Source of the DNA: Flavobacteriales bacterium UBA7519
Lineage (GTDB): Bacteria > Bacteroidota > Bacteroidia > Flavobacteriales > Weeksellaceae
DNA: 16,943 bases
Assembly: GCA_002476905.1 (NCBI GenBank)
Contig: DLND01000165.1
Coordinates: 1 to 16,943 of the forward strand
Reading direction: 5' to 3'
Numbering within the stretch: position 1 is the first letter of the stretch; each line of letters begins with the position of its first letter. The notes beneath the pieces are model-generated. The model was not told where the DNA came from, made no database searches, and saw nothing but the letters and a program-made list of their open reading frames with translations. The position numbers and the translations under genes are program-made. Shown in pieces: positions 468-15,633 of this stretch.

Positions 468-896
468 ATGTTTTCTAAACAAGAAGCGCAACTACTAAAA
501 ACAGAATTCTGGACGGCTTTCGGAAAAGCTTTTCCAAGAAAATGGTTGCTGTATGATACCAAAATCAAGGATTTTTCTTTCAAATTTTACGCAGATAATA
601 AAAAAGCTGAGGTTTCTATTGATATCGAGATGAAAGATGAACTGTTCCGTAATGCTTATTACGAGAAGATTTGGTCTTTGGAGTCCATTTTAGAAGATGA
701 AATTGGAGAATTTTCAAAAGATGAATTTTATGTTTTGGATAATGGAAAAGTCATCAGCAGAATTTGGGTTGAGAAAACAGGAGTCAGTATTTTCAATAAA
801 CAAACCTGGCCAGATATTTTCGAATTCTTTGTAGAAAAAATGGACGCTTTCGAGCGTATGTTTTATGAATATGAGGATTTCATCAAGGATGTTTAA
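468..896 (+). CDS. DUF4268 domain-containing protein
   Basis: A 142-residue soluble protein without signal peptide or membrane segment. The N-terminal FWTAFGKAFPRKWLLYDTKI segment, the KDFSFKFYAD strand, the AEVSIDIEMKD strand with acidic residues and the aromatic-rich helical C-terminus (FFVEKMDAFERMFYEYEDF) resemble stand-alone DUF4268 proteins of Bacteroidetes. In other bacteria DUF4268 is found as a C-terminal domain of nuclease-related or hypothetical proteins; its function is not established. The ATG at 468 follows an A-tract and the heptamer repeats. The next gene starts 21 bp after the stop and the third 6 bp after that, so the three probably share a transcript. Molecular role unknown; family assignment from remembered pattern only. 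Confidence 0.65.
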   Translation: MFSKQEAQLLKTEFWTAFGKAFPRKWLLYDTKIKDFSFKFYADNKKAEVSIDIEMKDELFRNAYYEKIWSLESILEDEIGEFSKDEFYVLDNGKVISRIWVEKTGVSIFNKQTWPDIFEFFVEKMDAFERMFYEYEDFIKDV

Positions 897-917
897 TTTG
901 TTGAATTTTAAATCAAA

Positions 918-1241
918 ATGAAATATAATCCAAATAAAGGAAGTGAAATTGATGGGGATTTAGATATTTTCAGTTATCAAAATGATGATAATGAAACAAA
1001 AATTATGATTCACGGTGATCCAGAAGGTTTGAGGTCTTTTGCTAAATTGCTCTTAGAAATTGCAGATTTAAAACAAGAAGAAGTTTCTGAAGAATATTTA
1101 CCAATTGGCGCTAGAGAACATTATCATCTTAGACCCAAAATAGAATTGTCTAAAAGTTCAAATGAAGTAATAGTGGGAAGATTGGATGCCAAAGGAACTG
1201 GAGATTATTATGATAGATTTGAATCTAAAAACAAAGATTAA
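918..1241 (+). CDS. Small protein, possibly Imm32-like immunity protein
   Basis: A 107-residue acidic cytoplasmic protein. The central block, IMIHGDPEGLRSFAKLLLEIAD (residues about 29-50) followed by a spacer, an H-rich EHYHLRP motif (68-74) and a final beta strand NEVIVGRLD, follows the pattern I associate with Imm32-type polymorphic-toxin immunity proteins: beta strand, GDxEGLR helix, HxHL, then a hydrophobic strand. No toxin gene lies beside it in this window, so if the assignment holds it is an orphan or has moved to a housekeeping role. It sits between the DUF4268 gene and a small unknown gene with gaps of 21 and 6 bp, which suggests cotranscription. The Imm32 link is tentative; a plain hypothetical protein is the fallback. 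Confidence 0.4.
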   Translation: MKYNPNKGSEIDGDLDIFSYQNDDNETKIMIHGDPEGLRSFAKLLLEIADLKQEEVSEEYLPIGAREHYHLRPKIELSKSSNEVIVGRLDAKGTGDYYDRFESKNKD

Positions 1242-2312: not shown

Positions 2313-3854
2313 ATGGCAAATATTTGGATTAAGAAACCAATGGAAGCTTATGAAGCGGACATTAAAAAAAGTCAGCTCAAGCGTGTATTGGGAAAATGGA
2401 GTTTAACAGCTATCGGAATTGGTGCCATCATTGGAGGTGGTATTTTTGTTTTAACAGGGACAGGTGCTTACTATAACGCCGGTCCTGCATTAGCACTTTC
2501 TTTCGTTATCGCGGGGATCGCTTGTGTTTTTGCAGCACTATGTTATGCAGAGTTTGCGTCCATTCTTCCAGTTGAAGGTTCTGCTTACGCTTATGCCTAT
2601 GGCACCGTTGGAGAAATTTTCGCATGGATTATTGGTTGGGGACTGATTCTGGAATATGCGATGGGTTCTATGACAGTCGCTGTTTCGTGGTCGGGTTATT
2701 TTGGAAAATTGCTTAAAATGTTTGGCTTGCACATGCCAGCTTGGCTCACAACGGATCCACAAACGTATCTTGCTGCAGGTAATTCTGGATTTTCTATGAA
2801 CCTACCTGCATTTTTAATTGTTTGGGTAGTAATTGGGATTCTTTTAAGAGGAACAAAAGGAGCCGCAAAAGCTAATAATTTCATCGTTGTGATGAAAGTT
2901 TCAGCGATTATTTTTGTAATTGTAGCTGGAGTTTTCTTTATCAATCCAGAGAACTGGACGCCATTTATACCTGAGCCTACAACTATTACAGAAAATGGTG
3001 TTTCGCACCCAGCTTATGGATATGCTGGAGTAGTGGCCGGAGCGTCTGCAATTTTCTTTGCTTATGTAGGATTCGATGCTGTTTCTACACAGGCTGGTGA
3101 GGCTATAAATCCTAAGAAAGATGTTCCGTTTGCAATCATTGCATCATTGGTAATTTGTACATTATTATACATTTTGGTATCATTGGTTTTAACAGGGATG
3201 ATGCATTATACAGACTTCAATCCTTTAGGAAAATATCCAGATGCTATCAAAGCTCCTGTAGCTTATGCTTTTGATATAGCGGGACAAGCTTGGGCAGGTT
3301 ACATCATCACGATTGCTGCCACAGTTGGACTTATTTCTGTTTTAATGGTAATGATTATGGGACAATCCAGAATATTTTTAGGAATGTCAAAAGATGGTCT
3401 GATTCCTAAAACTTTTGCAAAAGTAAATCCTTTAAGTGGTGTTCCATCCAAGAATCTGGTAATTTTGGGCACCGTTATTTCTGTGGTAGCATCATTTACC
3501 CCGATTAATGATCTTGCACATATGACAAGCTTCGGAACCTTATTCGCGTTCACTATGGTATGTGTAGCAGTTTGGGTATTGAGAGTAAAAGAGCCCAATT
3601 TGCAAAGAAACTTTAAAGTTCCTGCATTGCCTGTGATTGCAGTTTTAGGCATTGCAATCAATATTTATTTGATCATCAACCTGAGCAAAGAAGCGCAAAT
3701 GTATTCTTTAGGCTGGTTGCTTATAGGTTTCTTCATTTATTTCTTGTACAGTAAGAAAAATTCAAAATTGCAGAATGGAGGGTTTGGAGAGACGTTCAAA
3801 GCAGAACAAGAACCTTTGGAGGATGTAGATATCGATATCGACAACAAACATTAA
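2313..3854 (+). CDS. APC superfamily amino acid permease
   Basis: A 513-residue polytopic inner-membrane protein with roughly 12 or more hydrophobic helices. The first helix carries TAIGIGAIIGGGIFVLTG, the unwound-helix motif of the amino acid-polyamine-organocation superfamily that binds the substrate carboxylate and amino groups. Further family features are a Glu in CYAEFAS, a PVEGSAYAYAYGTVGE loop, FFAYVGFDAVSTQAGEAINP in the middle and the QSRIFLGMSKDGLIP motif after helix 8. Overall it resembles cationic amino acid transporter (CAT/YfnA-like) permeases; the cytoplasmic tail is acidic (DVDIDIDN). The substrate cannot be read from the sequence. The gene stands alone: its start is 180 bp from the divergent pnuC gene, and a strong terminator follows the stop. 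Start at 2313 chosen because the cytoplasmic N-terminus before helix 1 has normal length. Confidence 0.9.
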   Translation: MANIWIKKPMEAYEADIKKSQLKRVLGKWSLTAIGIGAIIGGGIFVLTGTGAYYNAGPALALSFVIAGIACVFAALCYAEFASILPVEGSAYAYAYGTVGEIFAWIIGWGLILEYAMGSMTVAVSWSGYFGKLLKMFGLHMPAWLTTDPQTYLAAGNSGFSMNLPAFLIVWVVIGILLRGTKGAAKANNFIVVMKVSAIIFVIVAGVFFINPENWTPFIPEPTTITENGVSHPAYGYAGVVAGASAIFFAYVGFDAVSTQAGEAINPKKDVPFAIIASLVICTLLYILVSLVLTGMMHYTDFNPLGKYPDAIKAPVAYAFDIAGQAWAGYIITIAATVGLISVLMVMIMGQSRIFLGMSKDGLIPKTFAKVNPLSGVPSKNLVILGTVISVVASFTPINDLAHMTSFGTLFAFTMVCVAVWVLRVKEPNLQRNFKVPALPVIAVLGIAINIYLIINLSKEAQMYSLGWLLIGFFIYFLYSKKNSKLQNGGFGETFKAEQEPLEDVDIDIDNKH

Positions 3855-5223: not shown

Positions 5224-5877
5224 ATGAAGAACACGGTTATTTTTGATATGGACGGCGTGATTGTAGATACAGAACCGCTTCATAAAAAAGCTTACTATCA
5301 GCATTTTGAAGAACTTAATATAAATGTAGATGCAGAATTATTCTCAAGATTCACAGGAAAATCTACCAGAAATGTCTATCAAATGATAAAAGAGATTTTC
5401 GGAATTGATACCAATGTTGAAGATTTAATCCAAAGAAAAAGAACCCTATTTTACGATTTATTCGATTCTGACCCAGCTTTGAAGTTGTTAGATGGAGTAG
5501 AAGTATTGATTAAGAATCTTTATTCTGCCAATTTCCAATTGATATTAGCTTCTTCTGCTGCAAAATCTACCATTCATCGGGTTTTTAAGCGTTTCAATTT
5601 ATTTCCGTTTTTTTCACATCTCGTAAGTGGTGAAGATTTCCCCGAATCAAAACCAAATCCTGCTATTTTCATCGAAGCTCAAAGGCTTTCTGGAAATGAA
5701 AAATCCAATTGCATTATCATAGAAGACAGCACAAACGGAATTCGGGCAGCAAATGCGGCAGAGATATTTTGTGTTGGTTACAAAAGTGAAAACAGTAAAA
5801 ATCAGTATTACGAAACTGCAGACTTAGTCATTCATCATTTTGATGAGCTGAAAGTTGAGGAATTGGAATTGATTTAG
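5224..5877 (+). CDS. HAD-superfamily phosphatase / phosphoglucomutase-like
   Basis: A 217-residue cytoplasmic protein with all four haloacid dehalogenase motifs. Motif I is DMDGV at residues 8-12, with nucleophile Asp8 and acid/base Asp10. Motif II is ILASSAAKS near Ser110. Motif III is Lys143 in SKPNP. Motif IV is IIIEDSTNGIRAA, with Glu167 and Asp168 binding magnesium. A helical C1 cap occupies about residues 15-88. The DTEPLHKKAYYQHF segment after motif I and the STNGIRAA tail of motif IV place it with beta-phosphoglucomutase-like (GPH/PgmB) enzymes, which dephosphorylate or isomerise small phosphorylated metabolites. The exact substrate cannot be assigned. It is probably transcribed on its own, and its stop lies only 9 bp from the stop of the convergent ATP-grasp-like gene. 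Confidence 0.9.
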   Translation: MKNTVIFDMDGVIVDTEPLHKKAYYQHFEELNINVDAELFSRFTGKSTRNVYQMIKEIFGIDTNVEDLIQRKRTLFYDLFDSDPALKLLDGVEVLIKNLYSANFQLILASSAAKSTIHRVFKRFNLFPFFSHLVSGEDFPESKPNPAIFIEAQRLSGNEKSNCIIIEDSTNGIRAANAAEIFCVGYKSENSKNQYYETADLVIHHFDELKVEELELI

Positions 5878-5886
5878 GTTTGATTT

Positions 5887-7068
5887 TTATTGCCCAAAAA
5901 ACGCCATAGAACTTCCAATCCAAATTGCATCTTTCTTATTAAAATCCACATTCACCATCGCAGCTTTCGTCATTCTTACAAGGTTGACGAGTAATTCTGG
6001 ATTTTCTTCTTCTGGATTCCACGCAAAAAGCAAACGGATTTCAGCTTTGGAAAATTCACCATTGATGTCTTCAAAAAGTGGTGCGTAAGTCACTTTTCTT
6101 TGGAGGATATAATTTTGTTTATCTTCAATTTTATTAATGATTTCCTGAGTCGGATTCAGATTTACGCCGCTTCCTGCGAATGAGAAAAGAGGCTTCAGAA
6201 CGAAGTTTTCCAATGGTTCAGTTTTAGGAAAATCCGATAAGAAATAACTTTTCGGAACAAACTCGTGTTTCAGTTTTGGGAGAATGTATTTTGAGATTTT
6301 GAAAAACCAATTCGGATGCGTAATCCATTCGACATCAATGTCTTCTCGGAAATCAAATTCCGTTTCCAAACCCTCGATTTTATCCAATTCATCAAAAATT
6401 ACACGATTGTAAATTCGGTTGATTGGAACTAGTTTCCCATTATTTTCATAAAATAACTTTTTCCCTTCTTTTTTGATTTTCGTCAGACAAACCGTTTTGA
6501 TTCCAAGATATTGTTCTGTCAAAGCAAAGTCAATAAACGTTTTTTGTTTCTCTGGGTAGATTTCCAAAAGAATCACATTTTCAGGATTTTCATTTCCTAA
6601 GATGACCTGTTTCAATCTTTTGATGTATTCATCTTTTGGGAGCGAGTTTTTCAGTTCATTCAAGAAAGGATAAACTTTGGTAATCACTTCTTCAAACAAC
6701 TTCTGAAATCCAAACAAACTCGGAAAAGCCTGCAATTCTATCAATTGCGGAATTACATTGCCATGCTCATCTTGACAAATTCCAAAATCAATTGCTACAA
6801 AATGTGGCTTTTTAGTGTCATTCGGAACATTACAATTCGCAGGAATAGCTTTGCTGAGTTCTTCAACAGACATTTCCTTGATTTGCGAAATAATCGATTG
6901 GGAAGCATCATTCAGCTTTTGCCAAAAATCTTTGGTAAGAAAAATTGGACTCTCAGAAAGTCGAAACGCGGCTTCGTGACCGCATTTCTCTATTATTAAT
7001 TCATTGACTTTTTGATATTTTTCCGGAGAAAATTCTTCGTTGAATTGAGTTCTGTATTTTGGAATCAT
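5887..7068 (-). CDS. Glutathionylspermidine synthase-like, circularly permuted ATP-grasp
   Basis: A 393-residue cytoplasmic protein. The acidic metal-binding strand pair, DFGICQDEHG...LIELQAFPSL (residues 94-117, with Asp94 and Glu111), comes before the ATP-binding lysine motif FVLKPLFSFAGSGV (289-302, Lys292). This order is the reverse of classical ATP-grasps and is the one found in glutathionylspermidine synthase-type, circularly permuted enzymes, where a KPLFSREG-like loop binds ATP. Further on, the KAEIRLLFAW strand and the RMTKAAMVN segment may complete the site. Such enzymes activate a carboxylate as acyl phosphate and join it to an amine. No amidase domain is present, so it is ligase only. 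It is the last gene of the long minus-strand cluster, 39 bp after the amidotransferase-like gene, with heptamer repeats abutting its ATG. Substrates unknown. Confidence 0.7.
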   Translation of the reverse strand: MIPKYRTQFNEEFSPEKYQKVNELIIEKCGHEAAFRLSESPIFLTKDFWQKLNDASQSIISQIKEMSVEELSKAIPANCNVPNDTKKPHFVAIDFGICQDEHGNVIPQLIELQAFPSLFGFQKLFEEVITKVYPFLNELKNSLPKDEYIKRLKQVILGNENPENVILLEIYPEKQKTFIDFALTEQYLGIKTVCLTKIKKEGKKLFYENNGKLVPINRIYNRVIFDELDKIEGLETEFDFREDIDVEWITHPNWFFKISKYILPKLKHEFVPKSYFLSDFPKTEPLENFVLKPLFSFAGSGVNLNPTQEIINKIEDKQNYILQRKVTYAPLFEDINGEFSKAEIRLLFAWNPEEENPELLVNLVRMTKAAMVNVDFNKKDAIWIGSSMAFFGQ

Positions 7069-7103
7069 AGTTTGTGTTTGGTTGTAGGTATTTGGTTTTA
7101 GTT
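7069..7103 (-). repeat. Five degenerate 7-bp repeats abutting a start codon
   Basis: Read on the minus strand, five 7-mers of consensus ACCAAAY run directly into the ATG at 7068; two of them, ACCAAAT and ACCAAAC, agree at 6 of 7. The leader contains only A, C and T. Confidence 0.5.
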
Positions 7104-7120
7104 ATAATCAACCAAATACC
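7087..7120 (-). other. Hairpin spanning the amidotransferase stop codon
   Basis: A perfect 11-bp inverted repeat, GGTATTTGGTT (7087-7097) and AACCAAATACC (7110-7120), encloses a 12-nt loop. One arm overlaps the last codons and stop of the amidotransferase-like gene; the other lies in the heptamer leader of the next gene. On the transcript no T-tract follows it, so it is not a standard terminator. It could tune read-through, RNA stability or translation of the downstream gene. Confidence 0.55.
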
Positions 7121-7950
7121 AAGTTTTTAGTAATTTGTTCAGAAGCCAGCTGTAAAAACCTTGGGATTATTTGGGCTCTGGTCAATATAATTTTGTCGTC
7201 ATCATCCATTCTGTCAATGGTTTCAAGGTATTTCTCCATCCCGAAAGTTTCAATCATCGCTTCTTTGTTTTTCTCATCTTCCAGATTTTTGATGAAGCCA
7301 ATTGGGTCAGCTTCTGGATGAAACTGAGTTCCGAAAATCTCGTCAGAAAAACGAACGGCCATCATTGCTCTTTCCAGATGAACCGTAGGGCGGATTTTTT
7401 CTAAAGCCACGATTTTCATACCCAATTCGTCTAATTTTTCCTGATTAGGTTCGATGCATTGATACGCTCTGGAATCAACTGCGTAAAAAGGATCTGGCAG
7501 ATTTTGGAACAGAAACTCACTGTCACCTTCTTCCGATTTGTGAATTGGCATCACCCCGAAAGAATATGATTTTCTCTTGCAAACATTTGCAATCCCGAAA
7601 TGAATAACTGCCAATTGGAAAGAATGACAAACCAGAAACAGATATTTTTTCTGCTCATTGTTTTTGTTATGTTCCCAAACCTGCGTCAAAAAATCAGCGA
7701 ATTTCTGTTCCCATTCGTAACCTTCACGGTGCGGATTTCCTGGCCCTCCGGAAGAGATGAAAATGTCAAAATCTTCAATATTTGGCATTTCATTTTTATA
7801 ACGAACATCAAAAACATCCACAGAAACTACGTATTCTGATTGCTCCTGAAACGCTTTCGACAGCTCTTTTATATTTCTCATCCCTTGATTAGGATGATTA
7901 TTATTCATATCCAAAAGTGCAATTCTTACATCATTTTTACTCATATTCAT
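7108..7950 (-). CDS. Class I glutamine amidotransferase-like protein
   Basis: A 280-residue cytoplasmic protein with the triad glutamine amidotransferase fold. The oxyanion region is IFISSGGPGNP (residues 64-73), the nucleophile elbow is FLVCHSFQLA (105-114, Cys108), and the catalytic His211 and Glu213 sit in FGTQFHPEADP. The elbow VCHSFQ lacks the usual glycine before the cysteine (GxCxG), which sets it apart from GuaA- or TrpG-type subunits. Related stand-alone proteins are either ammonia-supplying glutaminase subunits or gamma-glutamyl hydrolases like PuuD. Next to a GCS2 ligase and ATP-grasps, hydrolysis or transfer at a glutamyl amide is plausible. Its ATG is 7 bp after the toxin stop, so it is probably co-translated with the toxin-antitoxin pair. 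A second in-frame ATG two codons later is an alternative start. The C-terminal extension (residues 220-280) is helical and unassigned. Confidence 0.8.
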   Translation of the reverse strand: MNMSKNDVRIALLDMNNNHPNQGMRNIKELSKAFQEQSEYVVSVDVFDVRYKNEMPNIEDFDIFISSGGPGNPHREGYEWEQKFADFLTQVWEHNKNNEQKKYLFLVCHSFQLAVIHFGIANVCKRKSYSFGVMPIHKSEEGDSEFLFQNLPDPFYAVDSRAYQCIEPNQEKLDELGMKIVALEKIRPTVHLERAMMAVRFSDEIFGTQFHPEADPIGFIKNLEDEKNKEAMIETFGMEKYLETIDRMDDDDKIILTRAQIIPRFLQLASEQITKNLVFG

Positions 7951-7957
7951 ATTGTCT

Positions 7958-8251
7958 TTAATAAATTGATTTTTGTTTACCGTCTCTGAAATTAATTATT
8001 ACAATTTGTTTGTTTTTCGGACTTATTTTGTAAACGATATAGTTATTTTCGTCAACCATTCCTTTATGCAGATGTTTGAATCTTGCAGTTTTAGGATATA
8101 GATTTGGCTGTAATTTGATTCGTTCAATGAATTGATTGATGTTGTCTTCTAATCGCAGAATTTCTTTTTTTGTCCAATTTGATTTGAGATATTCAATTGT
8201 TTTAGAAAGGCCTTTCTCAGCACCATTGGTCCAGACGATTTTTATTTCCAT
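7958..8251 (-). CDS. ParE/RelE-family type II toxin
   Basis: A 97-residue basic protein with the ParE/RelE fold pattern: IVWTNGAEKGLSKTIEYL helix at the start (Trp7, Ala11, Leu15, Tyr21-Leu22), Trp26, a long helix, LQPNLYPKTARF, then the strand YIVYKI (71-76) and a final strand with INFRDGKQ (86-93). ParE toxins inhibit DNA gyrase, whereas RelE toxins cleave mRNA at the ribosome; the sequence does not decide, although the FRDGKQ ending is common in ParE-like members of Bacteroidetes. Its ATG overlaps the end of the antitoxin gene by 10 bp, the usual translational coupling of antitoxin and toxin. The gene is intact. It lies inside the ligase cluster between the GCS2 ligase and the amidotransferase-like gene. 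Confidence 0.85.
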   Translation of the reverse strand: MEIKIVWTNGAEKGLSKTIEYLKSNWTKKEILRLEDNINQFIERIKLQPNLYPKTARFKHLHKGMVDENNYIVYKISPKNKQIVIINFRDGKQKSIY

Positions 8252-8472
8252 TCATCAAACAATTTCATCACATCTTGATGTGATTTTACGCGATCGTTTT
8301 GAGCTTCTTTCAGTCCCACTTCAATGTCTTGCTGTTCTTCTTCATTCATTTCTTCCCACCAATCTTGAGAAGATTCTTTCTGAAAAATATCTTTTATTTT
8401 TTCAAGAACACTTTCTTTCTGAGTATTTAAAAGAAGTTTCATTAGTTCCAATTTGGTTGTTTCAATGTTCAT
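8242..8472 (-). CDS. Antitoxin of the ParE/RelE module
   Basis: A 76-residue acidic protein starting MNIETTKLELMKLLLNT. The reading frame stays open upstream to a TTG codon, but the ATG at 8472 gives the usual antitoxin N-terminus and sits just after the candidate promoter. Residues 1-30 form an amphipathic helix-rich part likely to dimerise. The Trp-rich, acidic middle (DWWEEMNEEEQQDIEVGLKEA) and the C-terminal HQDVMKLFDEW helix are typical of the segments that wrap around ParE/RelE-type toxins. The gene overlaps the toxin start by 10 bp. Its expected roles are to neutralise the toxin and to repress its own promoter through the palindrome at 8483-8500. No named DNA-binding family was recognised with certainty. 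Confidence 0.8.
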   Translation of the reverse strand: MNIETTKLELMKLLLNTQKESVLEKIKDIFQKESSQDWWEEMNEEEQQDIEVGLKEAQNDRVKSHQDVMKLFDEWK

Positions 8473-8482
8473 AACCAATTCT

Positions 8483-8500
8483 TTTTGCAAATTTACAAAA
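8483..8500 (-). promoter_or_regulatory. Candidate promoter box and operator of the toxin-antitoxin pair
   Basis: The minus strand carries TAAATTTG (8488-8495), a perfect TAnnTTTG -7 box, 15 bases before the antitoxin ATG. It lies inside an 18-bp imperfect palindrome, TTTTGYAAATTTRCAAAA, whose half-sites agree at 8 of 9 positions. A repressor bound there would cover the promoter. No -33 TTG is visible, and the leader would be only about 8-10 nt. Confidence 0.5.
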
Positions 8501-8547
8501 TTGAAAATATTTCTTTAATTTATTAAATTACAGAATAAAATTAATAA

Positions 8548-9651
8548 TTAAAAAAGCCCTTTCTCTGTTTCATAAATCATATAATCCACTACTTTTTTCA
8601 TATCACCGCCACTTTCGTGGAACACTTTGAGTTGTCTGTCTGCTCCGGTTCCCATTTTGATAATTTCTCTCGCAAACTCAACTTCTTTTCTGCATCCCAA
8701 ATCGTCCACAACATCATCTATGAAAGCCAATAATTCTTCCAGTAAGTCTTTATAAGGTACGCAGATTTCTTTGCCAAAATCGATGAGATGAGCATCAATT
8801 CCGTCTTTGGAAGCGCGCCATTTATTCTCTGTCAGCAGAAGTCTTCTGTAACTCCTAAAACTAATATTTTGCTGGTGCATTTTATAGATTTTTGCTACCA
8901 AAGATTGCATAATTGCTGCCAGACAAACGGTCTCATCTATAGTCATCGGCATATCACAAATTCTAAATTCAATCGTAGGGTAGAACGGATGGACTCTCAG
9001 ATCCCACCAGATTTTCTTTGCATTATCGATTGTTCCAGTTTTCACCATCAGATTGACATACGCATCAAATTCCGCCACACTTCCGAAATAACTTGGTAAT
9101 CCTGTTCTTGGAAATTTAGCAAAAACTTCTTGTCTGTAAGATTTGAAACCTGTTAATCTGCCAACCCAAAACGGCGAATTGGTAGACAATGCGTAAACGT
9201 GCGGTAAAAAATAGCGCATCACATTTTGGATTCTAATTCCTTCTTCACGATCTGGAATCCCGATGTGAACGTGTAAACCGAAAATGAGATTCGACCTTGC
9301 AACATCGCCCATATCGCTTACGATTTTGTCATAACGTGCATCTTTAGTAATGATATTGTCCTTCCAATGCGAAAATGGATGCGTTCCACCGCCCGAAACT
9401 CGCAAACCTTGGTCGTGAGCCGTTTTTACGAGATGTCTTCTGAGGTCAGTCAATTCCTGACGTGCCTGTTGGATATTTCCACAGATGCCTGTTTCCATTT
9501 CTACGACAGACTCGTGCATCTCGTGTTTTAAGTTTTCGCTTAGAACGGCTTTTCCTCCTTCAATGATTTTGGAAACGTGAGACACCAAATCGCGGCTTTC
9601 CGCATCTATGATTTGGTATTCTTCTTCTACACCTATTGTGAATTTGTGCAT
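8548..9651 (-). CDS. YbdK-type carboxylate-amine ligase (GCS2 family)
   Basis: A 367-residue cytoplasmic enzyme of the glutamate-cysteine ligase type 2 family, full length for YbdK-like proteins. It begins with the ATP/metal motif IGVEEEYQ (residues 6-13), followed by HEMHESVVEMETGICGN, SGGGTHPFSHW (86-96), LHVHIGIPD (126-134), the TIEFRICDMP strand (226-235) and ENKWRASKDGID (275-286), all hallmarks of the family. These enzymes form an acyl phosphate from a glutamate-type carboxylate and join it to an amine; YbdK has weak gamma-glutamylcysteine activity, and its true substrate is often unknown. No glutathione synthetase of the usual type is in the window. The gene lies 120 bp after the RimK/Ddl-like ATP-grasp gene and 75 bp before the toxin-antitoxin pair. 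Start ATG follows a GA-rich tract and the ACTAACT repeats. Confidence 0.9.
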   Translation of the reverse strand: MHKFTIGVEEEYQIIDAESRDLVSHVSKIIEGGKAVLSENLKHEMHESVVEMETGICGNIQQARQELTDLRRHLVKTAHDQGLRVSGGGTHPFSHWKDNIITKDARYDKIVSDMGDVARSNLIFGLHVHIGIPDREEGIRIQNVMRYFLPHVYALSTNSPFWVGRLTGFKSYRQEVFAKFPRTGLPSYFGSVAEFDAYVNLMVKTGTIDNAKKIWWDLRVHPFYPTIEFRICDMPMTIDETVCLAAIMQSLVAKIYKMHQQNISFRSYRRLLLTENKWRASKDGIDAHLIDFGKEICVPYKDLLEELLAFIDDVVDDLGCRKEVEFAREIIKMGTGADRQLKVFHESGGDMKKVVDYMIYETEKGLF

Positions 9652-9659
9652 TTTTTTTC

Positions 9660-9680
9660 TTGTGTTAGTTAGTAGTTAGT
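9660..9680 (-). repeat. 7-bp tandem repeats before the GCS2 start codon
   Basis: On the minus strand two perfect ACTAACT copies (9667-9680) and one diverged unit AACACAA (9660-9666) precede an A-rich tract and the ATG at 9651. Confidence 0.5.
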
Positions 9681-9732
9681 CTATATTCGATGTATTTGAG
9701 AACTTCAGATGACATTGTGGAAAAATTAGCAA

Positions 9733-9758
9733 TGTCACACTGAGCGGAGTCGAAGTGT
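9733..9758. repeat. Short dispersed repeat fragment
   Basis: The segment ACACTGAGCGGAGTCGAAG (9737-9755) continues into a T-rich stretch. ACACT (9737-9741) and AGTGT (9754-9758) are complementary. From memory this type of sequence (cactgagcggagtcgaagtg) recurs between flavobacterial genes; only one copy is in the window. It occupies the largest spacer of the ligase cluster. Confidence 0.4.
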
Positions 9759-9771
9759 TTTTAAAATATTT

Positions 9772-10722
9772 TTAAAGCTTATTGGTCACAAATGTTCCCC
9801 AGTCGATATTGATTTTTCCAGGCTTGTAGTCTTTGGCTTTTTCGATTGCTAATTTTGCAGCGTGTTCTACAATCCATTGGAAATTTTCTTCGCCAACAGA
9901 GTTTCTGTCAGCATCGGGCGCTGGATTACAAAAATCAATGGCGTAAGGGATTCCGTCTCTTACAGCAAATTCCACTGTGTTGAAATCGTAACCCAAAGCT
10001 TCATTAATTTTAATCGTATAATCCGTAATGGTTTTCAACAGTTTTTCGAGTTCTTTTCCTTCGGTTTTGTGGGTTGTTGCATACCTTAGATGATGCGGAT
10101 TTCTTGGTTCATAAGGCATAATGTGAACGTATTTTCTGCCCAGACAATAAACTCTGTAATAATCTTCGAAGACAATCTCTTCCTGAACCATCATTACCAA
10201 TTGCTCGGTCTCAGCGTGTTTTGCCCACATATCTTCCGGACTTTCAACTCTATAAACATTTCTCCAACCGCCACCGTCGTGAGGTTTCATATAAGCCGGA
10301 AATCCGATATAATCGAAAATGTATTCCCAATCGTGAGGGAATTTCAGGTTTCTGAACGATGTTTCCGAAGTATTAGTTGGTCTTTCGTGTGAAGGTAACA
10401 AAACGGTGTTCGGCAACGGAATTCCGATTTTTGACATCAATGCGTTGTTGAAAAACTTCTCATCTGCACTCCACCAGAATGGATTATTGATAACGTAAGT
10501 TCCGTTAACCGCGGCATTTTTAAGATAAGCTCTGTAGAAAGGAACGTCTTGCGAAATCCTGTCAATAATCACAGCGTAACCGTAATCTGCACCTTGTTCT
10601 AGTTTGTCTATTAGAACCGGTTCTGCAATGTATTCTCCTTTGCCGAGTTCATTGACTTTATCGATAAAAGCCCACGGAAACGTGTCTTCCATCCCGAATA
10701 AAATTCCAATTTTTTTTGCCAT
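9772..10722 (-). CDS. ATP-grasp ligase, RimK/Ddl-like
   Basis: A 316-residue cytoplasmic protein with a Rossmann-like N-terminal domain (KIGILFGMEDTFPWAFIDKV), then the two ATP-grasp lobes. Visible motifs are the ATP-binding lysine and glycine-rich loop FPAYMKPHDGGGWRNVYRV (residues 141-159, Lys146), the adenine-pocket segment MMVQEEIVFEDYYRVYCLG, and the magnesium-binding set VEFAVRDG (Glu251) and AIDFCNPAPDAD (Asp263, Asn266). The order is classical. Members of the group join a carboxylate to an amino acid or amine through an acyl phosphate. The WRNVYRV and PEPRNPH-like basic patches are not typical of D-Ala-D-Ala ligase, so a different substrate is expected. It lies between the small esterase and the GCS2 ligase in the same orientation. 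Start ATG is preceded by an A-rich tract and the CTTCGGA repeats. Confidence 0.85.
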   Translation of the reverse strand: MAKKIGILFGMEDTFPWAFIDKVNELGKGEYIAEPVLIDKLEQGADYGYAVIIDRISQDVPFYRAYLKNAAVNGTYVINNPFWWSADEKFFNNALMSKIGIPLPNTVLLPSHERPTNTSETSFRNLKFPHDWEYIFDYIGFPAYMKPHDGGGWRNVYRVESPEDMWAKHAETEQLVMMVQEEIVFEDYYRVYCLGRKYVHIMPYEPRNPHHLRYATTHKTEGKELEKLLKTITDYTIKINEALGYDFNTVEFAVRDGIPYAIDFCNPAPDADRNSVGEENFQWIVEHAAKLAIEKAKDYKPGKINIDWGTFVTNKL

Positions 10723-10741
10723 AATTTTGTTTTTTTTAAGG

Positions 10742-10769
10742 TCGGAAAACGGATGTCCGAAGTCCGAAG
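10742..10769 (-). repeat. Four 7-bp repeats upstream of the RimK-like gene
   Basis: On the minus strand two perfect CTTCGGA copies (10756-10769) are followed by CATCCGT and TTTCCGA. They lie 19 bases before the ATG at 10722. Confidence 0.5.
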
Positions 10770-10803
10770 TTTGTATGTTTATTTTATTAATTTAAATTTT
10801 TGA

Positions 10804-11517
10804 TTACCCGAAAAATCTTCCAATAAATTTCGGGAAAACCATTCTCCAAAGCTCCCAATCGTGATCTATCCATTTTTGCTCATCATACCAATGATTGATT
10901 CCTTTTGATGTTAAGATGCCCGCCATTTTTCTCGTTGGTTCCAAACAAATGTCACGGTCAGATGTACTGAGAACAATATGCATATGCTTATATTTCCAGG
11001 CTTCATCATTCTTCACGAATTCATCCGGACAATTGAAATAAATCAGCTGATCCTGATAGCCGTCCATAAAATTCCGGATGTTAAAAGCACCAGACAGACA
11101 GAAAAGATGCGAAACCAAATCTGGAAATCTAAACGCAATATTTGCAGCGTGATAACCACCAAAACTTGCGCCTGCAACAGCTACGCGATGTGTGTTATGC
11201 GTTCTTTGGATATAAGGAATGAACTCCTGAACCAAAAACTGAACATACATTTCGTAATTTCTGATTCTTTCATAAGGTGAAATTCCTTTGTCATAAAAAC
11301 TGAATTTATCAATCGTCTGAACATTGAATAATTTCAAAATTCCATTGTCTGTGAAATGTGAAATACTTCCGTTCAAATGAAAATCGGTATTCTGAGTATA
11401 AGAACCCTGAGAAGTCGGAAACATAATAATCGGATAGCCGAAATGTCCTGTAACTTCCACCTGAAGGCTCATTCCAAGAATATGTGAATAATAATCTGTA
11501 TGTGTTATTTGAGGCAT
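10804..11517 (-). CDS. Alpha/beta-hydrolase esterase
   Basis: A 237-residue protein of the esterase D / putative esterase type without signal peptide, therefore probably cytoplasmic. The nucleophile elbow is VAGASFGGYHAA (residues 114-125, Ser118 in GxSxG), an acidic residue lies in LSTSDRDICLE (Asp187 or Asp189), and His219 sits in WIDHDWELW near the end, which completes a Ser-Asp-His triad. The early strand PIIMFPTSQGSY supplies the oxyanion region. Substrate unknown: it could cleave an ester or thioester in the pathway encoded around it, or act as an acyltransferase. It stands between the two classical ATP-grasp genes (spacers of 65 and 81 bp), so a shared transcript is likely. Confidence 0.85.
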   Translation of the reverse strand: MPQITHTDYYSHILGMSLQVEVTGHFGYPIIMFPTSQGSYTQNTDFHLNGSISHFTDNGILKLFNVQTIDKFSFYDKGISPYERIRNYEMYVQFLVQEFIPYIQRTHNTHRVAVAGASFGGYHAANIAFRFPDLVSHLFCLSGAFNIRNFMDGYQDQLIYFNCPDEFVKNDEAWKYKHMHIVLSTSDRDICLEPTRKMAGILTSKGINHWYDEQKWIDHDWELWRMVFPKFIGRFFG

Positions 11518-11541
11518 TGTTATTTTAAAATTAAAAGATTG

Positions 11542-11576
11542 TGAAATTCAGAAATTGATAATTTATCATTCATAAT
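11542..11576 (-). repeat. Degenerate AT-rich 7-bp repeats upstream of esterase
   Basis: On the minus strand five 7-mers, starting ATTATGA and ATGATAA, have a shared ATT..-A pattern; the first three agree at 5 of 7 with their neighbours, the last two at 3 of 7. The low complexity of the sequence makes this the weakest of the six heptamer arrays in the window. Confidence 0.3.
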
Positions 11577-11582
11577 TAAGCA

Positions 11583-12794
11583 TTAGCTGCTTGGTTTGTC
11601 TTTTGGCGGAATGATATTCAGAATCTGTTCTGTGACATAGGTTGCCGCTTCATCTAATTTTTGCTGAATTCTTTCGGGATTGTTGGATTTATAAACAATT
11701 CCGATATGATAATCGATGGGTAGGAATTTTACCGCTTCATCGCTTTTCAAATTGTCAATATTGGGATGTTTGTCTTTTGCTAATGCCACAATCAATCCAG
11801 AATATAATTTCTGCGTTTCTTCAACCGAATATTTAGTTCCTTCTAACAAGGCATTTTCCAATCTTGCCCATTCTCTCCAGATATTGACGCCGGTTGCTGC
11901 TTCTACCATATCAGGAATGTGTGCGCCGCCAACTCTGGAAGATGTTTCGAGGAAATAATATTGTCCATCTGTTCCTCTGATGTATTCACTATGAGTTGCT
12001 CCATTTTTGATTCCGAATTTTGTCAGAACTTCTCTGTTGATTTGTTCCAAACCTTTGGCTTCTTCAGAATTTTTATCCAATGTTTTGGTACGGAAAACGC
12101 CACCTTCGTGAGAAACTTTCATCGGTGGAGATAGATATTTTGAAAAACAGGAAAATACAATTTCCTTATTATAAACCAAACAATCTACGTGATAGACATC
12201 GCCGGGTTTAAAAGCTTCTAAAAGAAATTTGTAACGTTCATCCCCAAGATTTTCCACAGCCGACCAAAGTTCATCAACCGAATTAATTTTCTTGATTCCA
12301 CTTGCTGAAGCTTCAGAACGGGGTTTCAGCACCCAAGGTCCGGGAACATCTTGCGTGAATTGATGAAGTTTTGCATCATTGAAAATGGAAGAAAATTCTG
12401 GAACAGAAATCCCGTTGTCTTTGGCTTGTTGGCGCATAGCCAGTTTATCTCGAAAATAACGATGTGTCGTTTGTCCCATCCCAGGAATACGATAGGTTTC
12501 ACGAATCATTGCCGCTTTTTCTACATCATAATCATCCAAAGCAATTACCGCATCGATCTGGTGGTTTTTCATCAGATAAGCAAATCCCTGAACCAAATGG
12601 TCAAGATTCCAAACCGAAGGTTCAAGCTCTGGCATATAATAAATCTCGTCTATAGCGTGCCAAGGCCAATTCTTTTCTTTCATGTTTTCTGACGTAATCA
12701 AAATGACTTTGTTGCCGAGTTTTTTGCACTCGTCCATAAAATCATAACCTTTGTAATAACAAGAGATGCAAACAATCGTTTTTTCCATATTCAT
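11583..12794 (-). CDS. ATP-grasp ligase, carbamoyl-phosphate-synthase-like
   Basis: A 403-residue cytoplasmic protein. The N-terminal pre-ATP-grasp domain has VIALDDYDVEKAAMIRE (residues 83-99) and GMGQTTHRYFRDKLAMRQ (105-122, Lys117), as in PurK/CarB/BacD-like enzymes. The ATP-grasp core follows: PWVLKPRSEASASGIKKI (153-170, Lys157), a LLEAFKPGDVYHVD segment, and the metal-binding HSEYIRG (Glu270) and FLETSSRVGGAH (Glu283, Arg287). Relatives make dipeptides or other amides (L-amino acid ligases, for example BacD-type). The product here is unknown. It is the third ligase of the cluster and of a different type from the other two ATP-grasps. It follows the M17 aminopeptidase by 37 bp. ATG at 12794 is preferred because the heptamers end exactly there; a second ATG two codons later is possible. 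Confidence 0.85.
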   Translation of the reverse strand: MNMEKTIVCISCYYKGYDFMDECKKLGNKVILITSENMKEKNWPWHAIDEIYYMPELEPSVWNLDHLVQGFAYLMKNHQIDAVIALDDYDVEKAAMIRETYRIPGMGQTTHRYFRDKLAMRQQAKDNGISVPEFSSIFNDAKLHQFTQDVPGPWVLKPRSEASASGIKKINSVDELWSAVENLGDERYKFLLEAFKPGDVYHVDCLVYNKEIVFSCFSKYLSPPMKVSHEGGVFRTKTLDKNSEEAKGLEQINREVLTKFGIKNGATHSEYIRGTDGQYYFLETSSRVGGAHIPDMVEAATGVNIWREWARLENALLEGTKYSVEETQKLYSGLIVALAKDKHPNIDNLKSDEAVKFLPIDYHIGIVYKSNNPERIQQKLDEAATYVTEQILNIIPPKDKPSS

Positions 12795-12829
12795 ATTTTT
12801 GTTGGTGGTCAGATGGCTGATGTCCGATG
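12795..12829 (-). repeat. Five 7-bp units abutting an ATP-grasp start codon
   Basis: On the minus strand the first three units are CATCGGA, CATCAGC and CATCTGA, agreeing at 5 of 7 positions; two diverged units (CCACCAA, CAAAAAT) then run directly into the ATG at 12794. The array fills almost all of the 37-bp gap between the two genes. Confidence 0.55.
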
Positions 12830-12831
12830 AT

Positions 12832-14238
12832 TTAATTATAATTTTCTATAAAGTCTAGTAAAAGCTGAACGCCATAGCCTGTCGCTGCTTTATCTTTAGC
12901 ATAACCAACATTCCCAAATGCTACGCCTGCAATATCCAGATGCGCCCAATTTTCGTGACCTTCAATGAATTGTTCCAAAAATTTTCCAGCAATAATACAG
13001 TCTCCAAAAGGTTTCATCGAAATGTTCTTAAAATCTGCAACATCCGAAGTAAAATCATCTTTCCAAATATCCCAAAGTGGAAGATTCCAAAGTCGCTGAT
13101 TGGTTTTATCGGCCGATTTTTCCAGTTTCTTTTTCAACTCATCATTGTTAGAAAAATAAGCGCCACAAGTGTAACCAAACATCCTAACCGAACTTCCTGT
13201 GAGCGTTGCCAAATCAATCAAAACATCAGTTTTGTAATTTTTTGACAAATAAGAAAGTCCGTCAGCTAAAGTCATTCTGCCTTCAGCATCCGTGTTTAGA
13301 ACTTCAATGGTTTTTCCATTGTAAGCCGTCACAACATCGCTCGGCAAGTACGCACGTTCCGAAACGACATTATCCGTAATCGGAAGTATGGCGATGATGT
13401 TTACAGGAAGTTTCAGTTCCGAAGCTGTAATCAAAGCTCCAATAACTGCACTTGCTCCGCCCATATCACTTTTCATGTAATGCATATTGTCAGATGGTTT
13501 GATGGAAATCCCACCAGTGTCGAACAAAACGCATTTTCCGACTAACCCGAAAGTTTTTGCATCTGCTTTTCCACAATTGTATTCCAAAATGGTAAACGCG
13601 GCTTCTTGCGAACTCCCTTGATTAACTGCGACAAATGCTCCCAAACCTTCTTTTGTCGATTCTTCTCTGTTGAATGCTTTATATTTCAAATCATATTTTT
13701 CCGCAGTCGATTTTAGAAAATCTGAGATTTGGTTTACTTTTTTTTGATTGGCAGGTTTGTTCAGCCATTCCATTCCGGCAAATTGTCCGTTGCAAAGTGC
13801 TTCTGTTTTTAAGGCTAAATTTTTTCCCTCTTCTTCAGAAATATTTTCAAAATGAAGTTCAAAATTCTCCTGCCAAAACGGATGTGATTTTTCAAATGGA
13901 TAGAGATAGGTTCCTAAAAATAAGCCTTTTAATAATTCTTCTGTCAAATCCAATCCTAATTTTGAATGAACCGAAGTTGGAACTGCTTGCAAACTTTTTT
14001 TATAATCATTAGCAAATTTGTTTGCAATAGCTTGGATTTCGTATCCTTTTGAATCTTTCCCAATTCCAATGAAAAAATCGAACTTATCCGAGTGAGTTTT
14101 AATGAAAATGTCATTTTTTTTTCCATTGAAGAATAATTCAACGTTCGGATACGAGTTTTTTTCCTGTTCCCAATCGTCTTCGCTGAACAGGTATATTTTT
14201 TGGGTTGTTTTTTCTTTTTTACTATAAATTTTAATCAT
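12832..14238 (-). CDS. M17 leucyl aminopeptidase family protein
   Basis: A 468-residue metallo-aminopeptidase. All M17 active-site residues are visible: Lys235 and Asp240 in GLVGKCVLFDTGG, Lys247 in SIKPS, Asp258 in HYMKSDMGGA, and Asp317, Glu319 and Arg321 in NTDAEGR. These bind two metal ions and remove N-terminal residues from peptides. The N-terminal regulatory domain (about residues 1-150) is poorly conserved, as usual. No signal peptide. Within the ligase cluster it could mature or recycle a short peptide product instead of serving general protein turnover; this is inferred from position only. It is preceded on the minus strand by a pair of palindromic repeats (14252-14302) and followed after 37 bp by an ATP-grasp gene. 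Confidence 0.92.
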   Translation of the reverse strand: MIKIYSKKEKTTQKIYLFSEDDWEQEKNSYPNVELFFNGKKNDIFIKTHSDKFDFFIGIGKDSKGYEIQAIANKFANDYKKSLQAVPTSVHSKLGLDLTEELLKGLFLGTYLYPFEKSHPFWQENFELHFENISEEEGKNLALKTEALCNGQFAGMEWLNKPANQKKVNQISDFLKSTAEKYDLKYKAFNREESTKEGLGAFVAVNQGSSQEAAFTILEYNCGKADAKTFGLVGKCVLFDTGGISIKPSDNMHYMKSDMGGASAVIGALITASELKLPVNIIAILPITDNVVSERAYLPSDVVTAYNGKTIEVLNTDAEGRMTLADGLSYLSKNYKTDVLIDLATLTGSSVRMFGYTCGAYFSNNDELKKKLEKSADKTNQRLWNLPLWDIWKDDFTSDVADFKNISMKPFGDCIIAGKFLEQFIEGHENWAHLDIAGVAFGNVGYAKDKAATGYGVQLLLDFIENYN

Positions 14239-14251
14239 AAACTTTTTAAAT

Positions 14252-14302
14252 TTTGGCTAAAGCCAAATACAATCTTTAATTTTTCATCGGGCTAAAGCCC
14301 GA
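14252..14302. repeat. Pair of short palindromes (TAAA-loop) between genes
   Basis: TTTGGCTAAAGCCAAA (14252-14267) and TCGGGCTAAAGCCCGA (14287-14302) are two palindromes with the same TAAA/TTTA centre and GGC/GCC stem; their centres are exactly 35 bases apart. On the minus strand they read as GGCTTTAGCC elements. From memory this type of palindrome recurs between flavobacterial genes. They lie between the CBM48-like esterase stop and the aminopeptidase start and could fold as RNA hairpins, but no T-tract of terminator type follows. Confidence 0.6.
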
Positions 14303-14304
14303 CG

Positions 14305-15429
14305 CTATTTATTTAAATTGTCTTCTAATTCATCTTTGGCTTTCACGGGACTTTCCAAACTGTCTATGTAAAGCCATTCTACAGCTCTTGGAAATTCCTG
14401 CGACCAGAAAAATTCCTGATGCGTTCCTTGGTCGTTGATGTTGGTTCTGACTTCAAAATCGAAAGATTTCTGAGCGGTCAATTTTTTCAAAGCTTTTTCA
14501 AATAATCTGATTCTTCCGACCATTCTTGAACCTTCCAATCTTCCGCCGTACAAATAGACTTTCAGTTTGTACGGATTACTGAATGTAATCATCGGAAAAT
14601 CATTTTCCGGTTCAACCCAAAGCGACGGCGAAAAAATCAACAATTTGGAATAAACTTCGGGATAAAGAAATCCACCATAAATGCTAATCAAACCGCCCAA
14701 AGAGCTTCCACCAATTCCTGTGTTTTCTCTGTCTTTTTTTGTTCGATAATTTTTATCAATCCAAGGTTTCAAAGTATCGGTAATGAACCTCAAATATTTT
14801 TTGCCTTCAGCATTTTTCGTCACCTCTTCGTTATCAAAAATATATTCTTTGATTCGGTCATCGTTACCGTGTTCTACCGCAATGACAATCAAATCGCCTC
14901 GTCCATATTCTGCAAGAAGAGCCAATTTTTTATCAATTTCCCAATTTCCAAATTCGGAACCGTCATTGAATAAATTCTGTGCATCCTGCAAATACAAAAC
15001 CGGATAACTTTTGTCCGAATGGTAATAGTCATAAGGCAAAAGTGCCCAAACTTTTCTTGTTCTGTCCAACTGGGGAATATAGAATTCTTCATCCACCAAT
15101 TCCGTAATTGGGAAAAATTCTTTTTTGAAAGGTCCCCAATTCAGTCTCCATTTTTCGACCGTGTCTTGCGTTTTCTTTTTCTCTTTTTTTGTTTTTCTAT
15201 TCGGTGTAATGTTGTCATATCTGTCAATCTCGACATTTTCCCAACCACCTTTTGTGAACTTATATTCTATTTCATCATTTAAAAGTTCGTCAGAAATATT
15301 GATGTAATAATTATTCTCATCCAATTTTTCCAACTCAAACTTTGAATCTTTCGGATTCCACTTGTTGAAATTACCGGTAATAAAAATCGGTCGGTCATCA
15401 TTATCTTCTGATGTCAGAAAAAACTCCAT
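14305..15429 (-). CDS. Esterase with N-terminal CBM48-like E-set domain
   Basis: A 374-residue protein with two parts. Residues about 12-75 look like an E-set/AMPK-type glycogen-binding domain: PIFITGNFNKWNP, then YYINISDELL and EIEYKFTKGGWENVE, the usual dG.FN.W and eYKF..gg.W pattern. A very basic linker, RKTKKEKKKT (78-87), follows. Residues 110-355 form an alpha/beta hydrolase of the esterase D / enterochelin-esterase type, with nucleophile elbow GIGGSSLGGL (Ser243), a FSPSLWV turn and catalytic His337 in QGTHQEFFW. No signal peptide, so cytoplasmic is likely. Its substrate is unknown; such enzymes hydrolyse ester or lactone bonds. It is the first gene of the minus-strand cluster: a strong terminator lies upstream, so its promoter must be in the AT-rich 165-bp gap, where no clear TAnnTTTG box was found. 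Confidence 0.8.
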   Translation of the reverse strand: MEFFLTSEDNDDRPIFITGNFNKWNPKDSKFELEKLDENNYYINISDELLNDEIEYKFTKGGWENVEIDRYDNITPNRKTKKEKKKTQDTVEKWRLNWGPFKKEFFPITELVDEEFYIPQLDRTRKVWALLPYDYYHSDKSYPVLYLQDAQNLFNDGSEFGNWEIDKKLALLAEYGRGDLIVIAVEHGNDDRIKEYIFDNEEVTKNAEGKKYLRFITDTLKPWIDKNYRTKKDRENTGIGGSSLGGLISIYGGFLYPEVYSKLLIFSPSLWVEPENDFPMITFSNPYKLKVYLYGGRLEGSRMVGRIRLFEKALKKLTAQKSFDFEVRTNINDQGTHQEFFWSQEFPRAVEWLYIDSLESPVKAKDELEDNLNK

Positions 15430-15593: not shown

Positions 15594-15633
15594 AAAAAAT
15601 AAAAAAGCTTTCGAAGATTGACTCCGAAAGCTT
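15594..15633 (-). terminator. Rho-independent terminator of the GH43-like gene
   Basis: A 9-bp perfect stem, AAGCTTTCG (15605-15613) and CGAAAGCTT (15625-15633), with an 11-nt loop is followed on the minus strand by a T-rich tract down to 15594. It lies 27 bases after the stop of the glycoside hydrolase gene and separates it from the ligase cluster. Confidence 0.88.

Follow-up and report, generated by a model that had tools for sequence, protein, structure and literature searches.

Glutathione and homoglutathione are synthesized by a gamma-glutamyl-cysteine ligase together with a eukaryotic-type glutathione synthetase. In the operon for the osmolyte N-acetylglutaminylglutamine amide (NAGGN), a ligase, an amidotransferase, and a peptidase serve a small intracellular peptide; the proteins used are an asparagine-synthetase-like protein, a GNAT-ATP-grasp fusion, and an M42 peptidase. 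Neighborhoods of amidoligases and peptidases were reportedly predicted by Iyer et al. in 2009. Small pseudopeptides are also made by stand-alone ligases, as in the pathways to dapdiamide (DdaF/DdaG), E-64 (Cp1B/Cp1D), and tabtoxin (TabS). Here we describe a cluster of ten genes, G1 to G10, at positions 5887 to 15429 of contig DLND01000165.1 of Flavobacteriales bacterium UBA7519 (the window, 16,943 nucleotides in all), in which ATP-dependent amide ligases stand with hydrolases. We put at roughly 55% the probability that the cluster represents one dedicated pathway, in which a small amide-linked peptide or pseudopeptide is assembled by stand-alone ligases and also cut again. In our best reading, the product would be a small gamma-glutamyl-type pseudopeptide, assembled stepwise and turned over without a nonribosomal peptide synthetase (NRPS).

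Stand-alone amidoligase pathways are a known kind, and dapdiamide and E-64, each a pseudotripeptide put together by separate ligases, are analogues in logic (PMC12568646). Unlike these two and tabtoxin, the present cluster combines ATP-grasp ligases with a GCS2 ligase, occurs phylum-wide, and has a hydrolase (G7) among its most constant genes. Unlike glutathione synthesis, it has a further ATP-grasp ligase, G6, which with the hydrolase is most constant, whereas its GCS2 ligase, G5, is not always present; moreover, identity is about 9 to 16% for the remaining core ligase, G1, and the bacillithiol gene bshC coexists with the cluster. Glutathionylspermidine synthetase, YgiC, and YjfC differ from G1 in that G1, at 393 residues, has no amidase domain and scores below the PF03738 cutoff. 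None of the NAGGN families was among the Pfam and NCBIfam matches of the ten cluster proteins, and the cluster belongs with the neighborhoods of Iyer et al. to a broad class in which ligases and peptidases are linked. Among the open-access papers listed by our literature searches, none dealt with this gene set; the neighborhood might already be listed in the 2009 amidoligase survey. As far as the open-access literature shows, what is new is the combination of two ligase families outside the curated models, a constant hydrolase, and the displacement of one ligase by another.

The cluster genes form a co-inherited set. Single-gene searches were made in 148 genomes drawn evenly from Bacteroidota, a sample intended to be less biased than the 80 G6 loci described below. 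G6 was found in 60 genomes, G5 in 52, G1 in 49, G2 in 40, and G8 in 34; 62 genomes carried at least one of these five genes, and 86 carried none. G6 was present in 48 of the 49 genomes with G1, in 50 of the 52 with G5, and in all genomes with G2 (40/40) or G8 (34/34). A G7-like protein (at least 80 bits) occurred in 63 genomes, 58 of which had G6, so that 58 of the 60 G6 genomes were covered. Low-scoring matches were dropped for four proteins: for G8, 11 of 45 genomes (30.8 bits or less, against at least 304.6 for those kept); for G2, 1 of 41 (genome G066, 18.9 bits against at least 214.5); for G7, 38 of 101 (about 32 bits or less among the matches listed, against at least 83); and for f24, a substitute for G1 discussed below, 24 of 35 (42 or less against at least 290). 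Matches to G1, G5, and G6 were used as called, with two divergent G6 proteins included. Among the co-occurring genomes, G1 stood within 15 kb of G6 in 29, G5 in 35, G2 in 29, G8 in 7, and the G7-like gene in 28 of 58; G8 was unlinked to G6 in 27 of its 34 genomes. Because linkage at this distance covers only part of the genomes, much of the association is not due to adjacency.

Gain and loss were followed on an rpoB tree built with FastTree from 140 of the 148 genomes. G024 and G089 (no rpoB match), G049 and G122 (fragmented), and G110, G098, G048, and G068 were left out; all eight lack G1, G2, G5, G6, and G8, and G089 has a G7-like match. Presence changed 25 times on the tree for G6, 20 times each for G1 and G5, 19 times for G2, and 18 times for G8. 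Genomes G149 and G076 have almost identical rpoB genes, and one carries all five surveyed genes while the other carries none. In a paired test, 22 independent genome pairs on separate branches were used, one member of each pair having G6 and the other lacking it, and the partner was scored as changing in the same or the opposite direction. The same/opposite counts were 15.7/0 for G1 (median p, 3e-5), 15.8/0 for G5 (3e-5), 15.3/0 for G2 (6e-5), and 13.1/0 for G8 (2e-4). G7 gave 18.6/0 (p, 4e-6), and the presence of either G1 or f24, found in 59 of the 140 tree genomes and with G6 in 58 of them, gave 19.7/0 (p, 2e-6). Other pairs agreed, with few opposite cases (G1-G5, 16.7/0; G1-G8, 10.5/0.3; G5-G8, 10.4/0.5). 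For the comparison gene CphA (cyanophycin synthetase), 1.4 same and 1.4 opposite changes were counted against G6 (p, 1). Co-inheritance and correlated changes, seen despite many unlinked copies, therefore support one pathway, as the initial annotation had proposed. That annotation had also named, as a finding that would speak against it, the separation of the genes in relatives; such separation occurs in many genomes, but the co-occurrence and the joint changes on the tree persist.

Gene order around G6 was compared in species genomes, where the best 80 of at least 595 relatives were kept; these loci are the closest by G6 and hence a biased sample. The Weeksellaceae loci (L001 to L027 and L029) were assigned from genus or family names, with the Epilithonimonas lineage alone checked. 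The core order G7-G6-G5-G2-G1, on one strand, was found in 69 of the 80 loci: 27 of the 28 in Weeksellaceae, where the remaining locus is a 5-kb contig, and 42 of the 52 elsewhere, where 8 of the 10 exceptions lie on stretches shorter than 12 kb. The most constant part of the set comprises two ATP-grasp ligases (G6, and G1 or f24) and a G7-like alpha/beta hydrolase, to which G5 and the class I amidotransferase-like G2 are usually added. G8 and the M17 aminopeptidase (in the group G8-G9-G10) form a second, separable module, which in Weeksellaceae accompanies the core. There, G9-G8 precede the core in 27 of 28 loci and G10-G9-G8 in 23 of 28; in L061, L068, and L074 the three genes lie convergent behind G1, and in L109 and L110 they lie apart from the core. 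In counting this module as an integral part of the cluster, the initial annotation was not upheld. In 31 of the 52 loci outside Weeksellaceae, an extra minus-strand esterase with a weak match to G10 is found no more than 4 kb upstream of G6.

Scattered copies of G1, G5, G8, and G6 have neighbors that recur in one or a few lineages only, such as a sodium:solute symporter or an Amidohydro_3 protein for G1 and an aromatic amino acid lyase for G6. The Amidohydro_3 protein adjoins G1 in L276 to L279, and the lyase gene adjoins G6 in L099 (1703 to 4185), L100 (2747 to 5231), and L104 (1542 to 4642). In L269 (4637 to 7240), a symporter-like protein and, behind it, G1 share a single open frame, and in L270 (5790 to 8369) it lies directly downstream of a sodium:solute symporter gene, possibly a fusion or tight coupling to uptake. 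No match to G6 at an E value of ≤1e-5 was found among 72,556 plasmid records.

The ligases fall into several families. G6 (9772 to 10722, minus strand; 316 residues) ranks with the most highly conserved genes of the cluster and is the best marker for it. No Pfam family matched G1, G4, or G6 at an E value of ≤0.001, and structure prediction assigned ATP-grasp folds to G1 and G6, that of G6 resembling Ddl, LysX, and RimK. Assignment of G6 to the RimK family proper was rejected (TIGR00768, 33.6 bits; cutoff, 143.4) despite the similar fold, as was assignment to LysX (TIGR02144, 24.5 bits; cutoff, 275.6). For Maribacter, expression of a RimK-type ATP-grasp protein from a polysaccharide locus is reported (PMC11036162). 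G1 (5887 to 7068, minus strand) had no NCBIfam match above cutoff. Its predicted fold is that of glutathione synthetase, glutathionylspermidine synthetase, and YgiC; its structural neighbors are glutathione and peptide-polyamine ligases, which share the fold over nearly the whole length. PF03738 matched 27 of 42 G1-family sequences at an E value of ≤0.5, with a best E value of 9.6e-6. G5 (8548 to 9651, minus strand) belongs by its family scores to the GCS2/YbdK-type carboxylate-amine ligases (NF010039, 529.8 bits with a cutoff of 371; Pfam GCS2, 222.1 bits with a cutoff of 21), for which gamma-glutamyl ligase activity is predicted. G8 (11583 to 12794, minus strand) scored as an ATP-grasp_4 ligase (PF13535, 34.3 bits; cutoff, 27) and resembled the solved L-amino acid ligases 4wd3 (E value, 3.9e-15) and 3vot (2.3e-10), so that it is a putative L-amino acid ligase with predicted dipeptide-forming activity; it was rejected as a dapdiamide A synthase of the DdaF type (NF041595, 31.8 bits; cutoff, 840). 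Putative ATP/metal-binding or catalytic residues, whose roles we presume from family knowledge, were invariant in all four aligned families (G1, G2, G6, and G8). The three ATP-grasp types recognized in the initial annotation were thus recovered, G8 by Pfam and G1 and G6 by predicted fold.

In a set of genomes, G1 is replaced by f24, a ligase of like fold class. Of the twelve G6 genomes that lack G1, ten match f24 strongly and also have G2; f24 occurs in an eleventh genome, G144, alongside G1. Either G1 or f24 is present in 58 of the 60 G6 genomes, and the same 58 carry the G7-like esterase. Where open reading frames (ORFs) were resolved, the order in the variant was G6-f24-G2-esterase, with G8 behind it in L087 to L089 and a G7-like esterase in front in L092 and L095. 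f24 is a circularly permuted ATP-grasp type 2 protein (PF14403, over cutoff) and matches the putative glutathionylspermidine synthase 3n6x (E value, 1e-9), which is also a fold neighbor of G1. When the G1 and f24 profiles were aligned with hhalign, the match was merely weak and local (probability, 6; E value, 0.006; 100 columns), and common ancestry is therefore not claimed from sequence. With a different, circularly permuted ATP-grasp protein taking the place of one ligase, selection would act on the reaction rather than on the protein. At even odds, we suggest that about two-fifths of the sampled Bacteroidota (60/148) have in common an undescribed pathway for a small molecule. Two ATP-grasp ligases and a PF00756 hydrolase would form its irreducible core, the GCS2, GATase, and L-amino-acid-ligase/M17 components would be optional, and the product would be a new conserved peptide-like metabolite or cofactor of the phylum. 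G1 and G6, which have no Pfam or NCBIfam model above cutoff, are kept with fixed partners in about one-third and two-fifths of the sampled genomes, respectively, and several hypothetical proteins become one testable pathway. If this is true, a widespread small molecule of Bacteroidota would be revealed, along with new stand-alone ligases useful as biocatalysts.

The remaining enzymes include hydrolases. G7 (10804 to 11517, minus strand) is an alpha/beta hydrolase with an Esterase domain (PF00756), and G10 (14305 to 15429, minus strand) is a second PF00756 protein, in which about 119 residues precede the esterase domain. G2 (7108 to 7950, minus strand) is class I glutamine amidotransferase (GATase)-like or a thiol hydrolase of the same fold (Pfam GATase, 44.1 bits; cutoff, 22.8), and no NCBIfam model scored over its cutoff. 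Its Cys108, His211, and Glu213, which we take to be the Cys-His-Glu triad of class I GATases, were invariant in all 26 aligned proteins. G9 (12832 to 14238, minus strand) is an M17 (leucyl-type) aminopeptidase (Peptidase_M17, 342.8 bits; cutoff, 25), although no NCBIfam leucyl aminopeptidase equivalog scored above its own cutoff. The GCS2 ligase, amidotransferase-like protein, two esterases, and M17 peptidase listed initially were all borne out by Pfam or NCBIfam matches. As a specific member of the cluster, however, the M17 peptidase did not hold up: the family is found in 102 of 148 genomes, too broadly to serve as a pathway marker, and its gene is tied to G8, within 1 kb of which it lies in 11 of 34 G8 genomes.

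From family knowledge, a sequence of steps can be proposed. G5 would activate a glutamate-type gamma-carboxylate and join an amine to it, and G6 with G1 or f24, acting like glutathione synthetase or peptide-polyamine ligases, would lengthen the product at additional carboxylates. G2 might supply ammonia or cleave the gamma-glutamyl bond as gamma-glutamyl hydrolases do, while G7 and G10 would act on an ester-type group, removing or transferring it. The accessory pair G8 and G9 could make and trim a dipeptide, feeding or recycling the core. The G5 and G2 steps may be tailoring, because the genes are absent in 10 and 20, respectively, of the 60 G6 genomes. Synthesis of a peptide-like compound without an NRPS, as first suggested, is upheld in kind by the several stand-alone amide ligases and hydrolases; no NRPS domain was found among the 19 window proteins scanned, a scan not aimed at the short precursor ORFs of a RiPP cluster. 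The accompanying statement that the window holds no exporter needs qualification, as an amino acid permease (2313 to 3854) and an NMN_transporter protein (1470 to 2132) lie in the window outside the cluster.

Several observations weigh against this pathway. The G5 and G2 absences mean that a gamma-glutamyl or GATase step is not universal. In 33 of 58 genomes the G7-like protein has only 27 to 34% identity to G7, and in 30 of the 58 its gene is unlinked, so that it need not be an ortholog there; five genomes have a G7-like match but no G6, one of them (G089) outside the tree. G015 and G095, whose G6 proteins are 34 to 35% identical, have neither G1 nor f24 nor a G7-like protein. f24 alone did not change significantly with G6 (4.1/0; p, 0.125), and the exact tree counts are rough, since the tree is of a single gene by FastTree. 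G1 is about 9 to 16% identical to its structural neighbors and below the cutoff for Pfam GSP_synth (PF03738; 14.8 versus 29.3 bits), and likeness of fold does not determine chemistry.

The main rival explanation, which we consider unlikely, is protein tagging: G6, as a RimK-like or R2K-like enzyme, and G1 would couple amino acids or a short peptide to a protein, and the tag would be detached by G2, G7, and G9. The predicted G6 fold does match RimK and LysX/ArgX, enzymes of protein-borne substrates, and 19 of the 30 G6 proteins aligned show a weak R2K_2 similarity (E value, ≤0.5), R2K ATP-grasps being predicted protein modifiers (PMC4431377). Against this, the predicted fold of G1 matches free-peptide ligases. 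Relatives of GCS2 and of the L-amino acid ligases work on small molecules. ORFs were also clustered into families, with L081 to L086 left out as duplicates of surveyed genomes; besides the cluster genes, the widest recurring family of at least 80 residues occurred in 15 of 100 loci, so that no acceptor protein gene of this size travels with the core, and most of the rarer families were unannotated. Distinctly unlikely, too, is a glutathione-like thiol or peptide-polyamine conjugate (gamma-Glu-Cys-X or a glutathionylspermidine analogue) for redox or stress physiology. A GCS2 ligase together with an ATP-grasp protein of the glutathione synthetase/GspS/YgiC fold would suit such a product; YgiC and YjfC are reportedly peptide spermidine ligases, and the GATase-like hydrolase, M17 peptidase, and PF00756 hydrolase of the cluster each have a counterpart in glutathione turnover. 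GCS2 is lacking in the 10 G6 genomes mentioned above, though, and a replacement thiol is not called for, since 144 of 148 genomes, cluster-bearing or not, have a bshC match over its cutoff. Replacement of bacillithiol itself is unlikely and found no support, and at this frequency of bshC an anticorrelation would be hardly visible.

Some Weeksellaceae neighborhoods raise the question of nitrogen storage, with the cluster serving cyanophycin or glycogen metabolism. A cyanophycin synthetase homologue lies downstream within 10 kb in 11 Weeksellaceae loci, 8 of which also have cyanophycinase and plant-type asparaginase homologues, and homologues of GlgB, GlgA, and GlgC lie upstream in 15, 14, and 6 loci; one member of each family was checked. 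Across the 148 genomes, however, cyanophycin synthetase was over its cutoff in 17, of which 10 had G6 (Fisher p, 0.086), its changes on the tree were uncorrelated with those of G6 (1.4 same, 1.4 opposite), and G002 (Epilithonimonas arachidiradicis) carries it on a contig other than that of the cluster, which leaves such a link hardly credible. Cyanophycin and glycogen genes were accordingly rejected by the tree test as general partners; they are neighbors in part of the Weeksellaceae loci. In many Chryseobacterium-type loci (L007 to L029, e.g., L015 and L020), the cluster stands between glycogen and cyanophycin genes. It is also very improbable that the genes are unrelated housekeeping genes or serve general dipeptide recycling as chance neighbors. 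M17 and PF00756 proteins are indeed broad families (102/148 genomes, and 101/148 at an E value of ≤0.001, respectively), but G6, G1, G5, G2, the G7-like gene, and G8 co-occur even when unlinked (as in 27 of 34 G8 genomes), none of the five surveyed genes is present in 86 of the 148 genomes, and the correlated changes of the partners on the tree contradict chance.

With the dedicated small-molecule pathway as the preferred reading, the interpretation given initially is partly supported, and the layout that it described can be detailed. The ORF list of the window gives ten ORFs between 5887 and 15429, all on the minus strand and transcribed in the order G10, G9, G8, G7, G6, G5, G4, G3, G2, G1. 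Counted from G1 upwards, the intergenic gaps are 39 and 7 bp, an overlap of 10 bp, and 57, 120, 81, 65, 37, and 66 bp; these coordinates agree with the one-strand arrangement, the 7- to 120-bp spacing, and the overlapping toxin-antitoxin pair reported before. A plus-strand HAD-type gene ending at 5877 is tail-to-tail with G1. A consensus-only scan found no minus-strand intrinsic terminator between cluster genes, in keeping with the earlier description, and a single weak match inside G5 (9604 to 9591). Between G10 and the gene upstream, an intrinsic-terminator-like hairpin with a T run (15605 to 15633, minus strand) is a strong consensus match, not proof, and may be the upstream boundary of the transcription unit. 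The G10-G9 gap contains a GC hairpin without a minus-strand T run, and a Bacteroidota promoter pattern had no full minus-strand match within the cluster. Short GC-richer stretches with hairpin-like repeats lie in the gaps at 9652 to 9771, 10723 to 10803, 12795 to 12831, and 14239 to 14304; these include CGGACATC-type motifs and a TCGGGCTTTAGCCCGA hairpin and resemble small dispersed repeats.

The DNA of the window is Epilithonimonas-like (Weeksellaceae); its closest relatives by name are Epilithonimonas and Chryseobacterium. Ratios of nonsynonymous to synonymous substitution (dN/dS), calculated with our own Nei-Gojobori script and including some dS values near saturation, were 0.014 to 0.063 against L001 to L003 for the eight genes other than the toxin-antitoxin pair, so that these conserved genes are maintained. 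For the pair itself, the ratios against L001 and L003 were 0.07 to 0.21. It consists of G3 (7958 to 8251, minus strand), a ParE-type toxin (Pfam ParE_toxin), and G4 (8242 to 8490, minus strand), its putative antitoxin partner, which has no family match. The pair (7958 to 8490) lies between G5 and G2 in only 2 of the 27 Weeksellaceae loci having both of these genes (L001 and L003), and the toxin was found in none of the 52 other loci kept; the pair is therefore an insertion outside the conserved pathway and not the cluster member that it was first taken for. Near the start of the window (468 to 1241) are small genes with DUF4268 and Imm32 (immunity protein 32) domains.

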